From Dialister hominis (GTDB lineage: Bacteria > Bacillota > Negativicutes > Veillonellales > Dialisteraceae): DNA of 64,000 bases. The translations under genes and the position numbers were made by a program. Shown piece by piece: positions 53,361 to 57,027 of this stretch; the first letter of the stretch is position 1; each line of letters begins with the position of its first letter. The DNA lies in NCBI RefSeq assembly GCF_007164725.1, contig NZ_AP019697.1, positions 540,001 through 604,000 of the forward strand. The letters are read 5' to 3'. The notes beneath the pieces are model-generated. The model made no database searches and was not told the DNA's origin. It saw nothing but the letters and a program-made list of their open reading frames with translations.

Positions 53361-53413
53361 TTGTCAACTGTTAATGAAATCTAGTTGACATAAATCAACC
53401 AAGTGACTATAAT
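53361..53413 (+). promoter_or_regulatory. BirA-type operator overlapping consensus promoter
   Basis: TTGTCAAC (53361-53368) and GTTGACAT (53384-53391) are separated by 15 bp and match the known BirA operator layout TTGTTAAC-N15-GTTAACAA. The right arm contains the -35 TTGACA (53385-53390); TATAAT (53408-53413) follows after exactly 17 bp. Biotin-loaded BirA bound here would block the promoter. Confidence 0.85.
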
Positions 53414-53446
53414 AATTCAAGTAAATCACTACACGGAGGGGTTCTT

Positions 53447-53983
53447 ATGGGAAATAATCATTCTGTACGCATGCAGGTCATGTGTGCTCTCTTTACAGCA
53501 GTCTGCGCCGTATTCTCGCAGCTGACAATACCGATCCAGCCGGTGCCGATCACTCTGGGCTCCTTTGCAGCCCTCATGGCAGGCGGATTCCTTGGCAAGC
53601 GCTACGGTTTCCTGAGTCTTGTCATCTACCTGCTTCTTGGCATGGCAGGTGTTCCTGTATTCTCCATGATGCGCGCAGGCGTTTCCGTCATTGCGGGACC
53701 ATCCGGCGGATTCATCGTCGGCTTTGCAGTCATGGCATTCATCGTCGGCCTTGTCGGTGAAAAGCTCGGCTTCACATTCAAGAACATGCTCCTTGGCACA
53801 GTACTTGGTACGGCAGCCTGCTATACGATGGGACTGGCATGGTTCATGTTCCTGACCGGAAACGGACTCTGGGCTTCCATGCTTCTCTGCATGTTCCCGT
53901 TCCTGCCGGGGGATATCACAAAGATCGTTTTGGCCTCTTACCTGATCAGCAGATACCGCAAGAGACTGATCGGAACCAACTGA
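53447..53983 (+). CDS. bioY: Biotin transporter BioY
   Basis: A 178-residue, six-TM substrate-binding S component of a biotin ECF-type transporter. Family motifs are PIQPVPITLGSFAALMAGGFLG and GPSGGFIVGF, and the C-terminal FLPGDITKIVLASYL. GGAGGGG precedes the ATG. It is headed by a BirA-type operator. No EcfAAT genes are adjacent, so it may work with a shared ECF module or alone. A terminator separates it from the acyl cassette. Confidence 0.96.
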   Translation: MGNNHSVRMQVMCALFTAVCAVFSQLTIPIQPVPITLGSFAALMAGGFLGKRYGFLSLVIYLLLGMAGVPVFSMMRAGVSVIAGPSGGFIVGFAVMAFIVGLVGEKLGFTFKNMLLGTVLGTAACYTMGLAWFMFLTGNGLWASMLLCMFPFLPGDITKIVLASYLISRYRKRLIGTN

Positions 53984-53992
53984 TTCATAAGA

Positions 53993-54016
53993 CCGTTCCC
54001 CAGGGAACGGTTTTTT
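53993..54016 (+). terminator. Terminator between bioY and the acyl cassette
   Basis: CCGTTCCC pairs perfectly with GGGAACGG around CA, then six T residues. The next ribosome site starts four to five bases later, leaving no room for a promoter, so the downstream genes appear to need read-through. Confidence 0.88.
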
Positions 54017-54029
54017 CATAGGAGGAAAT

Positions 54030-54530
54030 ATGAAAGATGCAGTAAAGGCCATCTGCCGCATATGGCGCCCGGAGTGGCAGGGGATGCTGATGGGCAGGCT
54101 GACATATAAAAAAGGAAATGGAGAAAATAAAGCGTATGAGGAAATCATCCGCGATGGGAAACTTCTCCGCGTGGCCGTCCGCGGCAGGGAAAGCGGGGAA
54201 TTTCTTGAGCTCATCCTTTCAAAACCTTCTGCTCCCAAAGAAGGAGAGAAGCGGCCCGATGAAGCCGCCTTCTGGAAATCATTTTCAGCAGATGAAGTCA
54301 GAGCTTACAGCAAAGCGCTTGGCGACCATAATGAAATCCATTACACAGAGAAACCCGTCGTCAGCGGATTTCAGATTTTTGAATCCGTGATGGAAGAGTA
54401 TCCCTCAGATGGCATGAAAATTTCGTTCCATCATCCCGTCTTCAGCGGAGAAGAAGTATACTTGATGGAGAAAGATCAGAAGATTGAAGGATACACGGAT
54501 CAGTTGTGCTTTGTGGCGGTGAGATCATGA
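54030..54530 (+). CDS. MaoC-like hot-dog-fold protein
   Basis: A 166-residue protein whose second half resembles a MaoC/(R)-specific enoyl-CoA hydratase: FSADEVRAYSKALGDHNEIHYTE, with the Asp-x-Asn-x-x-His active-site pattern kept as DHNEIH, then PVVSGFQIF and HPVFSGEEV. The N-terminal 80 residues look like a second, degenerate domain. It is probably an acyl-CoA hydratase or dehydratase. AGGAGG precedes the ATG. It overlaps the thiolase gene by four bases (ATGA). Confidence 0.8.
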   Translation: MKDAVKAICRIWRPEWQGMLMGRLTYKKGNGENKAYEEIIRDGKLLRVAVRGRESGEFLELILSKPSAPKEGEKRPDEAAFWKSFSADEVRAYSKALGDHNEIHYTEKPVVSGFQIFESVMEEYPSDGMKISFHHPVFSGEEVYLMEKDQKIEGYTDQLCFVAVRS

Positions 54531-55681
54531 GAGACAGGAAGGTATATATATTAGGAGGACTCCGGTCGCATATCGGGATCCGGTATGGGATTTTCAAATC
54601 AGTAAGGCCCGAAGTGCTGGGCGGTCGTGTAGCCGCCGAGCTTTGCAGAAGGTACAGCGTCGTGCCGGACCTTTGCATTTGCGGGAATGCAGTGGGACCC
54701 GGAGGAAATATCGGAAGACTGCTTCTTTTGGAAAGCGGTTTCCCTGAAAGGGTGCCTGCTTTTACGCTTGATCTCCAGTGCGCTTCCGGTCTTGCCGCCA
54801 TCGATATGGCCGCAGGCAGGATTGCGGCAGGGCAGTGCGATGTAGTCCTGGCAGGCGGCGCGGAAAGTGCATCCCTCCAGCCAAAAAGAATATATGCCGA
54901 TCATGATGAAAGGGCAAAGCTCAGGAATCCGGAATTCACAGCGGCGCAGTTCATGCCGGGAGAATTCGGAGACGATGCCATGCTCCTTGGGGCAGAACGA
55001 GCTGCCAAAGCGGCAGGCATTACAAGGGAAGAAGCGGATGAAGCGGCGCTTAGAAGCCAGATGCTTGCAAAAGATGCATCCGAAAATGGAATATTCAGGG
55101 ATGTCATCCTGCCCCTCTTTGGCAGTACAAGGGATGAAGCCATCCGTCCCAGAATGAGCAGGAAGCTTCTGGAAAGGGCGCCGCGCGTGACGGATTTCCA
55201 GGACGGGATACTGACGGCCGCCAACTCCTGCACAATGAATGACGGAGCCGCTTTCCTTCTTCTTGTTTCTGAAGCTTGGGCGGATGAACATGAAATCACG
55301 CCTGCCTTTGAAATCGCAGATACGAGGCTCATCGGCAGCGATCCCAAGGTGCCGCCTCTTGCGGCGGACGCGGCGGTATCGGAAATGCTTGAGGCCAATC
55401 AGCTCACTTACGAGGATATCGATGCTTTCGAGTATAACGAAGCATTTGCCGTCATCAGCGCGCATTTCATGAAGAAGCATCCTGAAGTGGCCGGGCGTCT
55501 CAATCAGGCAGGAAACGCTCTTGCCTACGGGCATCCTTATGGCGCATCCGGCGCTGAGATCATGATCCATCTGATGGAAATCCTCCGGGAGAAGGAAGGG
55601 CGTCTTGGCGCGGCTGCCATTCCTGCTGCCGGCGGTGTCGGTGAAGCCATCCTTGTAAAGCGCACGGAGGCGGAAGAATGA
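54527..55681 (+). CDS. Thiolase-family acyltransferase, second catalytic Cys replaced
   Basis: A 384-residue thiolase-fold protein. The nucleophile Cys is in DLQCASGLAAIDMA near residue 82. NEAFAVISAHF and GNALAYGHPYGASGAEI supply the Asn and His. The usual C-terminal CxGGGxG loop reads IPAAGGVGEA here, so the deprotonating Cys is Ala. This suggests altered chemistry, for example decarboxylating or one-way acyl transfer, or loss of thiolysis. Start at 54527 overlaps the MaoC stop. The neighbouring ligase gene overlaps by four bases. Confidence 0.88.
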   Translation: MRDRKVYILGGLRSHIGIRYGIFKSVRPEVLGGRVAAELCRRYSVVPDLCICGNAVGPGGNIGRLLLLESGFPERVPAFTLDLQCASGLAAIDMAAGRIAAGQCDVVLAGGAESASLQPKRIYADHDERAKLRNPEFTAAQFMPGEFGDDAMLLGAERAAKAAGITREEADEAALRSQMLAKDASENGIFRDVILPLFGSTRDEAIRPRMSRKLLERAPRVTDFQDGILTAANSCTMNDGAAFLLLVSEAWADEHEITPAFEIADTRLIGSDPKVPPLAADAAVSEMLEANQLTYEDIDAFEYNEAFAVISAHFMKKHPEVAGRLNQAGNALAYGHPYGASGAEIMIHLMEILREKEGRLGAAAIPAAGGVGEAILVKRTEAEE

Positions 55682-57027
55682 AATTATCCGATTATGTGAT
55701 CCGCTGGGGGAAGGACAGGCCGGATCATGCTTTTCTTTCTCTTGACGGGAAAACGATCACTTATGGAGAAGCGGATGCTTTTACAAAAGGAAAAGGGGAA
55801 TCTTTGCCTGAAGAAGTGCACGGGAAGGTCGTTGCACTCTACCTGACGGACCCGGCAAGCCAGGTGCTCTGGTTCCTTGCCGTGGAAAGAGCAGGAGCCG
55901 TTCCGCTCCTTGTCCATGAATATATCAAAGGGGAAAGACTCGAGGAACTCTTCGATGCGCGCCCGATTGATTTCTTCCTGACGGACAGCGAGACGGGCGG
56001 CGTTTCCGTTTCCAAAAGGGAAGACGGGCTTTTCTTTGGAAGAATCAAGGATACGGGCATCACAAGAAAAGAAGGCGTTGCTGTCCTGACTTCAGGAAGC
56101 AGCGGCCTTTCAAAGATCTTTTTCCGGCGTGTGGAAAGCTGGGCGGATTTCTTCCCTGTGCAGAACAAGGCCTTTGGTGTGGACGGAGATTCCATCCTGT
56201 ATACGCAGGGATCCATGGCATTCACGGGAAACCTCAACATGCTCTTTTCCTTCATGGCCGAAGGCGCGGTGATTGCAGGGACAATGAAAGTCCTTCCGCG
56301 CACATGGATGAAGGAAATCATATCACTCCATGCAACGCATATTTACATGATTCCTTCCAAGCTGTATCCTCTTTCAAGAATGAACGGGTCGTCGGATTCT
56401 GTGAAATATATCCTGACCGGTTCCCAGCTCATGACCGAGCGGATCCTTACCGGCCTTAAAAAGCGCTTCCCGAAATCTGATACCGTTATGTACTATGGCG
56501 CATCAGAACTGAATTATGTTTCCTGCATACGGGGAAGCAAGATCCTTGAAATGCCTGACAGCGTGGGGAAACCCTTCCCCGGCGTTAATGTCACGATCAA
56601 GGACGGAGAAATCTTTGTAGAAAGTCCGTACAGGGTCGAGGATATTCCTCTTCCCTTTACCTGCCATGACCTGGGCTATTTTGACAAGGACGGATGGCTC
56701 CATTTCACAGGAAGAAGAGAAGATGTATATAATATCAAGGGAAACCACGTCAGCCGCCAGCGCGTCATTTCCCATATCCTCATGACTGAGGGCATCGATG
56801 AAGCGGAGCTTCTTGCCGTTCCATCAGAAAACGGGCTGCGCCTTATTGCCTTTGTCGCAGGGGATGATGTGCCGGATACCAGGACGATGATACGGAAACT
56901 TCATGAAAAGCTGGAAATCTGGGAAATCCCTCACCGCTTCATCCGCGTCAAATCCATTCCCAAAAGATCGACGGGAAAGACAGATAAAGATGCGCTTTTG
57001 AAAATCCTTGAAGAATCAAAAGAATAA
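55678..57027 (+). CDS. AMP-forming acyl-CoA synthetase (ANL superfamily)
   Basis: A 449-residue adenylating enzyme that activates a carboxylic acid, probably to a CoA thioester. ANL motifs are LTSGSSGLSKI (A3), YYGASELNYVS (A5), CHDLGYFDKDGWLHFTGRREDV (A7-A8, split here by position 325-345) and KRSTGKTDK with the catalytic lysine. It is shorter than typical 500-residue members. Its pairing with a thiolase behind bioY resembles the yhfU-yhfT-yhfS (BioY, ligase, thiolase) group of Bacillus subtilis. Substrate unknown. Confidence 0.87.
   Translation: MKLSDYVIRWGKDRPDHAFLSLDGKTITYGEADAFTKGKGESLPEEVHGKVVALYLTDPASQVLWFLAVERAGAVPLLVHEYIKGERLEELFDARPIDFFLTDSETGGVSVSKREDGLFFGRIKDTGITRKEGVAVLTSGSSGLSKIFFRRVESWADFFPVQNKAFGVDGDSILYTQGSMAFTGNLNMLFSFMAEGAVIAGTMKVLPRTWMKEIISLHATHIYMIPSKLYPLSRMNGSSDSVKYILTGSQLMTERILTGLKKRFPKSDTVMYYGASELNYVSCIRGSKILEMPDSVGKPFPGVNVTIKDGEIFVESPYRVEDIPLPFTCHDLGYFDKDGWLHFTGRREDVYNIKGNHVSRQRVISHILMTEGIDEAELLAVPSENGLRLIAFVAGDDVPDTRTMIRKLHEKLEIWEIPHRFIRVKSIPKRSTGKTDKDALLKILEESKE

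Follow-up and report, generated by a model that had tools for sequence, protein, structure and literature searches.

A BirA-type operator, bioY and an acyl-CoA cassette with an atypical thiolase form a recurrent unit in Dialister hominis and other Firmicutes

Why should a biotin importer gene be accompanied by three genes of acyl-CoA metabolism? This question is raised by positions 53361 to 57027 of a 64,000-nucleotide stretch of the Dialister hominis chromosome (NZ_AP019697.1, 540,001 to 604,000; hereafter the window), which belongs to a genome of 2.41 Mb in a single contig. The genes in question are bioY, encoding the S component of an energy-coupling factor (ECF) biotin transporter, and those of a MaoC-like protein, a thiolase and an acyl-CoA ligase (the cassette). 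Our comparison of genomes indicates that they almost certainly constitute a conserved unit under BirA control. The unit recurs across Firmicutes, including species unable to make biotin. As the cassette occurs even in such species, its probable role is to rebuild or process an acid taken up from outside, not to make the standard biotin precursor.

The evidence for BirA control comes from the region upstream of bioY. The preliminary description of this DNA had noted a near-ideal BirA operator over a consensus promoter, and both features withstood closer inspection. The operator (53361..53391, + strand), TTGTCAAC-N15-GTTGACAT, agrees with 13 of 14 specified positions, and similar boxes precede homologous operons. 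It is the sole match to the pattern TTGTNAAC-N13..16-GTTNACA in the genome; the reversed control pattern gave no match in the genome, and the BirA-type pattern gave none in 100 shuffles of the window. The sigma-70-type promoter, TTGACA-N17-TATAAT (53385..53413, +), fits the consensus at 12/12 positions. Its -35 element, TTGACA (53385-53390), lies within the right half-site of the operator, so that bound BirA would block the bioY promoter, and TATAAT follows after 17 nucleotides (53408-53413). In addition to this overlap of operator and promoter, the genome encodes a BirA protein (C1:717738; TIGR00121, 206.6 bits) with an N-terminal DNA-binding domain, the latter matching TIGR00122 with 59.5 bits (E 2e-16), which is under the cut-off of 70. 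Biotin scarcity probably switches the operon on. The gap after bioY, ahead of the enzyme genes, holds a terminator-like hairpin followed by a T run (about 53989..54019, +; -16.1 kcal/mol), as had been proposed. A simple terminator scan did not flag positions 53989-54019; T-run hairpins of other sequence occur at the equivalent place in three Dialister relatives (L042, L050 and L051). This pattern is as expected for an attenuating terminator, and the hairpin may act as one.

The four gene calls were upheld as well, and profile matches confirmed the thiolase and the ligase. BioY (53447..53983, +) matches PF02632 with 137.7 bits against a cut-off of 25 and aligns to Lactococcus lactis BioY (4dve, E 1.4e-16). 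Its C-terminal PGDxxK motif, present also in 4dve, is retained even by diverged BioY proteins of the cassette loci; judging by the alignment, this motif may be ligand-related. In three loci outside Dialister (L045, L052 and L055) the cassette BioY keeps PGDxxK but no longer has the PVPITLQT-like motif, so that its ligand may be a different one. The maoC-like gene (54030..54530, +) encodes a compact protein of 166 aa of the (R)-hydratase/dehydratase type, as judged by its motif and model fold. It does not reach the Pfam MaoC cut-off (PF01575, 12.0 bits vs 27). However, its D99-x-N101-x-x-H104 motif is invariant in 20 relatives, and its structural model (predicted local distance difference test, pLDDT, 93.2) aligns over the whole length to HtdX (3wew; VIA-align Z 16.3, root-mean-square deviation, rmsd, 2.8, 157 residues aligned) and also matches other (R)-hydratases. 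The Asp and His of the motif thus stand on a hydratase-2 fold, as in the HtdX/hydratase-2 (R)-enoyl-CoA hydratases, although the window protein is much shorter than these, about 12% identical to them, and without a Pfam match over the cut-off. The thiolase gene (54527..55681, +; TIGR01930, 312 bits) has PRK06690, the model of Bacillus subtilis YhfS, as its best specific match (240.7 bits, under the curated cut-off of 498). The last gene (55678..57027, +; PF00501) encodes an AMP-forming acyl-CoA ligase, for which PRK07638 (YhfT) is the best model (105 bits, under the curated cut-off of 518), and which has a P-loop-type motif from residue 138 and the TGK lysine. As 4-base overlaps join the maoC-like gene to the thiolase gene and the thiolase gene to the ligase gene, the three very probably form one transcription unit.

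Homologous loci were gathered by scanning 60 relatives with a profile and by searching 84,980 genomes of named species, and counted among the best 80 related loci, some of which are partial because they are cut by contig ends. All four genes were present in 46/80 loci; in another 25 only a detectable maoC was missing, and the remaining loci were partial. bioY accompanied thiolase and ligase genes in 71/80 loci. A BirA box, defined here as at least 12 of 14 positions matched and located up to 400 nucleotides before the first gene or 60 nucleotides inside it, was found upstream in 49/80 loci, compared with 0.4 loci in shuffled segments, and the density of such boxes was 1.47 per kb in the upstream zone vs 0.021 per kb elsewhere. 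Moreover, no further gene recurred beyond close relatives in the neighbourhoods of the anaerobes. The co-occurrence, the BirA boxes and the absence of another recurrent neighbour together indicate that the four genes form one set with BirA control, and they support the earlier suggestion that acyl metabolism is tied to biotin supply. The order of genes varies: bioY-maoC-thiolase-ligase in Dialister, maoC-bioY-thiolase-ligase in Veillonella and Negativicoccus, bioY-ligase-maoC-thiolase in Anaerovibrio, and with a divergent bioY in Lachnospiraceae. A Streptococcus vestibularis record (L113) holds a Veillonella-like maoC-thiolase-ligase cluster without bioY, which may reflect a transfer or a contig mix-up.

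The kinship with the Bacillus yhfU(bioY)-yhfT-yhfS group that had been pointed out earlier is borne out by the two nearest models, the BirA boxes and the linkage to bioY. By its sequence relations, the BirA-regulated yhfT-yhfS (vraA-vraB) operon of Bacillus and Staphylococcus has its anaerobe branch in the window cassette; the two share the BirA operator, bioY (in Bacillus), the same ligase and thiolase families and the absence of the second thiolase Cys. The cassette differs in having a single fused maoC-like gene, in gene order, and in scoring under the PRK06690 and PRK07638 cut-offs. At the yhfS-yhfT promoter of S. aureus, BirA binding and biotin-responsive repression have been measured (PMC6391492). 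The Bacilli members were found by a search of 299 genomes in the class of a Streptococcus record. Some of their loci have the order bioY-ligase-thiolase, and in others the ligase and thiolase genes are followed by two small genes, one HadA-like without the motif and one HadB/MaoC-like with D-x-N-P-I-H. Similarly, the published staphylococcal cluster vraA-vraB-vraC-vraP (PMC10620731) consists of a ligase, a thiolase and two small genes, the second of which fits the maoC profile (VraP-like, DxNPIH), but there MaoC is split in two genes and bioY is not adjacent; in work cited by that paper, VraCP are reported as cell-wall regulators. The two small HadA/HadB-like genes are therefore proposed here, for the first time, as the Bacilli counterpart of MaoC. 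The preliminary description had regarded the MaoC-like gene as an addition, which does not agree with a MaoC gene in 50/80 loci and with the split genes in many Bacilli; the window gene has probably arisen from an old component by fusion and shortening.

Three Bacilli loci (L177, L178 and L184) carry the operon ligase-thiolase-HadA-HadB-FabG-EcfA-EcfA'-EcfT-FabK, with bioY in L184. To judge by its gene families, this set, also described here for the first time, would supply both an importer and every enzyme of a two-carbon elongation cycle. FabG without FabK was found in L180, L183, L185 and L186, and FabK without FabG in L182. FabG, FabK and HadA/HadB were scanned against family libraries, while the names of Ecf, acyl-CoA dehydrogenase and type II fatty-acid synthesis (FASII) neighbours were read by eye from sequence. 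In L177 (4246-4959) and L178 (4449-5162), a different predicted vitamin-uptake membrane protein, recognised by sequence resemblance, stands at the place of bioY in the sister operon L184. An adenine-deaminase-like amidohydrolase lies within the BioY-ECF-ligase-thiolase-FabG clusters of L180 (8743-10461) and L185 (2783-4522), of which only the L180 copy was scanned against the family libraries.

The model of the thiolase (pLDDT 91.5) has the canonical thiolase fold (Z 55.9 to 4wys, rmsd 2.0, 371 residues aligned). The nucleophile Cys85, Asn304 and His336 are retained, but Pro366 stands in place of the second catalytic Cys, so that the protein is not a canonical two-Cys thiolase. The earlier claim that this Cys is absent was thus correct, but the residue had been given as Ala, which is usual in relatives (Gly in Bacilli) and is not the residue here. 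In an alignment of 71 sequences, none of the 57 sampled family thiolases had the second Cys, that of the CxG loop, and 56 of them had Cys at the position of a canonical Ser (Cys235 in the window thiolase), which corresponds to Ser247 in Zoogloea numbering. All 14 canonical thiolases showed the reverse, with Ser at this position and the second Cys present. Two peptide patterns underlie the set of 80 loci, and one of them spans the Cys235 codon, so that invariance of Cys235 there is partly selected, but the profile-based samples (the 60 relatives and the Bacilli search) are free of this bias. This family-wide loss of one Cys with a Cys at the Ser247 position is a new finding; together with the neighbouring ligase gene, it places the window protein with the YhfS/VraB-type thiolases. 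In the thiolase tree, where D. succinatiphilus and D. micraerophilus are the nearest named relatives, the anaerobe, Bacilli and canonical groups are each confined to one side of a branch, which is consistent with a single origin of the Cys change, short of proving it. In thiolases the second Cys serves as the base when acetyl-CoA is the partner in Claisen condensation, whereas FabH requires only Cys-His-Asn and a malonyl donor. As Cys-His-Asn is kept and the base is lost, we reasonably infer from the FabH precedent that condensation would be decarboxylative. Alternatively, Cys235 could be a relocated acid/base.

The reading that we tentatively favour, while holding it to be well short of probable, is that BirA-repressed enzymes lengthen an imported carboxylate by two carbons, and that this carboxylate is perhaps biotin whose side chain has been shortened. 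Under biotin scarcity, BirA would leave the operator, bioY would be strongly transcribed, and read-through of the hairpin would allow expression of the enzymes, coupling an importer of the biotin family to an acyl-CoA chain-processing module. The ligase would activate the imported carboxylate, the thiolase would add two carbons, perhaps through malonyl decarboxylation, and the MaoC-like enzyme would dehydrate the product after ketoreduction; the ketoreductase and enoyl reductase would be the host's FabG and FabK, which some Bacilli encode within the operon. The MaoC, FabG and FabK types suit a reductive, elongating direction, to which we give an even chance. As a rule, transporter-linked enzymes act on the compound that is brought in, and BirA control suggests that this compound matters when biotin is scarce; nevertheless, that it is a biotin vitamer is a possibility on the doubtful side. 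The best single guess is side-chain-shortened biotin or dethiobiotin, e.g., bisnorbiotin, which would be restored to biotin, and shortened biotin is the simplest substrate compatible with auxotrophs. In people, 13-23% of urinary biotin is bisnorbiotin (PMC9106636), which host-associated bacteria could therefore encounter. A literature search found no bacterial bisnorbiotin salvage pathway. The full version, a vitamin repair in which biotin shortened by beta-oxidation is imported and its chain rebuilt under BirA control by a dedicated module resembling a fatty-acid synthase (ligase, one-Cys thiolase-fold condensing enzyme, FabG, MaoC/HadAB and FabK), is unlikely.

Several observations weigh against elongation of an imported vitamer. 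FabG and FabK lie outside the window operon, and the FabK-type matches score under the equivalog cut-off. An acyl-CoA dehydrogenase near two Bacilli operons (L180 and L185) would suit oxidation. The staphylococcus-type loci have the unit apart from bioY, and in five loci with full flanks bioY is not nearby. That BioY would carry nor-biotins is a prediction of this reading, and our literature search found no tested substrate for YhfS, YhfT, VraA or VraB proteins.

Among the alternatives, the preliminary description had proposed that the cassette makes or recycles a pimeloyl-type precursor, and had advised looking for bioA, bioD, bioB and bioF. All were found in the window genome: bioW adjoins bioF, there is a bioY-bioD-bioA cluster, and three bioB genes stand in tandem, so that the genome has every step from pimelate onwards, including a pimelate ligase of its own; no match to the BioC route was found there at E up to 1e-15. 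We therefore rejected the cassette ligase as the pimeloyl-CoA ligase of this genome. Beyond it, bioB was present in 16 and bioF in 8 of 20 diverse cassette genomes, and several of those lacking bioF carry clear BirA boxes at the cassette, as if it did not depend on BioF; absence of bioF was judged partly from draft genomes. D. micraerophilus, with a genome estimated to be 99% complete, keeps the thiolase and ligase beside bioY and has no bioB, bioD or bioF. In a different version, glutarate is activated to glutaryl-CoA, and the addition of two carbons then yields the pimeloyl-CoA that BioF uses. This version has an exact precedent in BioZ of alpha-proteobacteria, which joins glutaryl-CoA and malonyl-acyl carrier protein (PMC7645780), and it accords with bioW-bioF in the window genome and with a pimelate source described as unknown in BioW bacteria (PMC11089781). 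If our elongation reading is right, the cassette and the BioZ/CaiB pathway would both lengthen an activated short acid by two carbons, but BioZ is FabH-like and not a thiolase, and cassette genomes often have no bioF. Among the 60 relatives, 22 had both cassette and bioF, 7 the cassette alone, 13 bioF alone and 18 neither (odds ratio 4.4, Fisher p 0.01, uncorrected for phylogeny). This positive association within the order keeps the idea alive, but the 7 of 29 cassette relatives without bioF, the 13 of 35 bioF genomes without the cassette, the 12 of 20 diverse cassette genomes lacking bioF and D. micraerophilus make it improbable.

A closer rival to shortened-biotin salvage, and about as likely because published work names the operon so (PMC6391492, PMC7235819), is an adjustment of fatty acids under biotin shortage. 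Low biotin limits the biotin-dependent acetyl-CoA carboxylase and hence malonyl-CoA, and the derepressed ligase, thiolase and dehydratase would spare biotin by activating and remodelling exogenous fatty acids or extending acyl-CoA without malonyl-CoA. This accounts for retention in auxotrophs and agrees with the annotation of the ligase and thiolase families as fatty-acid enzymes and with the FASII genes adjoining the D. micraerophilus cassette (L041), but it leaves unexplained the tight linkage to a biotin S component or, in Bacilli, to a whole ECF transporter, and malonyl-free condensation is not what the missing base Cys would lead one to expect. Loss of this Cys should impair thiolysis too, which counts against oxidative trimming, that is, beta-oxidation that shortens an imported long-chain or conjugated vitamer, or degrades biotin. 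Ligase, hydratase and thiolase are usual beta-oxidation parts, and the dehydrogenase near L180 and L185 would fit; however, the conserved unit has no dehydrogenase, FabK-type enoyl reductase and HadA/HadB point to the opposite direction, and degrading biotin makes little sense when BirA control implies expression at low biotin. We consider trimming decidedly improbable. It is very improbable that the enzymes only chance to stand behind bioY and each have a housekeeping role in acyl-CoA metabolism, as the hairpin that parts them from it in Dialister might suggest, since the unit is rearranged yet kept together behind a BirA box across several families.

yhfT-yhfS had been listed in the BirA regulon of B. 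subtilis and S. aureus without a function, and is now seen in gut anaerobes as well. The census gives it companions, namely BioY, MaoC and sometimes FabG, FabK and an ECF module, with no need for BioF. The active-site change is defined and family-wide, and the function is within reach of direct assays on a few substrates. Should salvage prove to be that function, it would be a new way for bacteria to obtain a vitamin.

Two further observations concern biotin synthesis. The three tandem bioB genes of the window genome (G000 C1:1838468-1841573, - strand, equivalent to L038:9457-12715) all score well above the bioB cut-off and have a 13/14 BirA box ahead of them (L038:12749); three bioB genes also lie close together in related genomes G003 and G005, and two in G007. 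Beside bioW-bioF, there is a gene for a small S-component-like membrane protein, both in the window genome (L188:7465-7950, -) and in a relative (L190:6185-6685, +), where a 13/14 BirA box precedes it; its product is a candidate pimelate importer, comparable to BioX.

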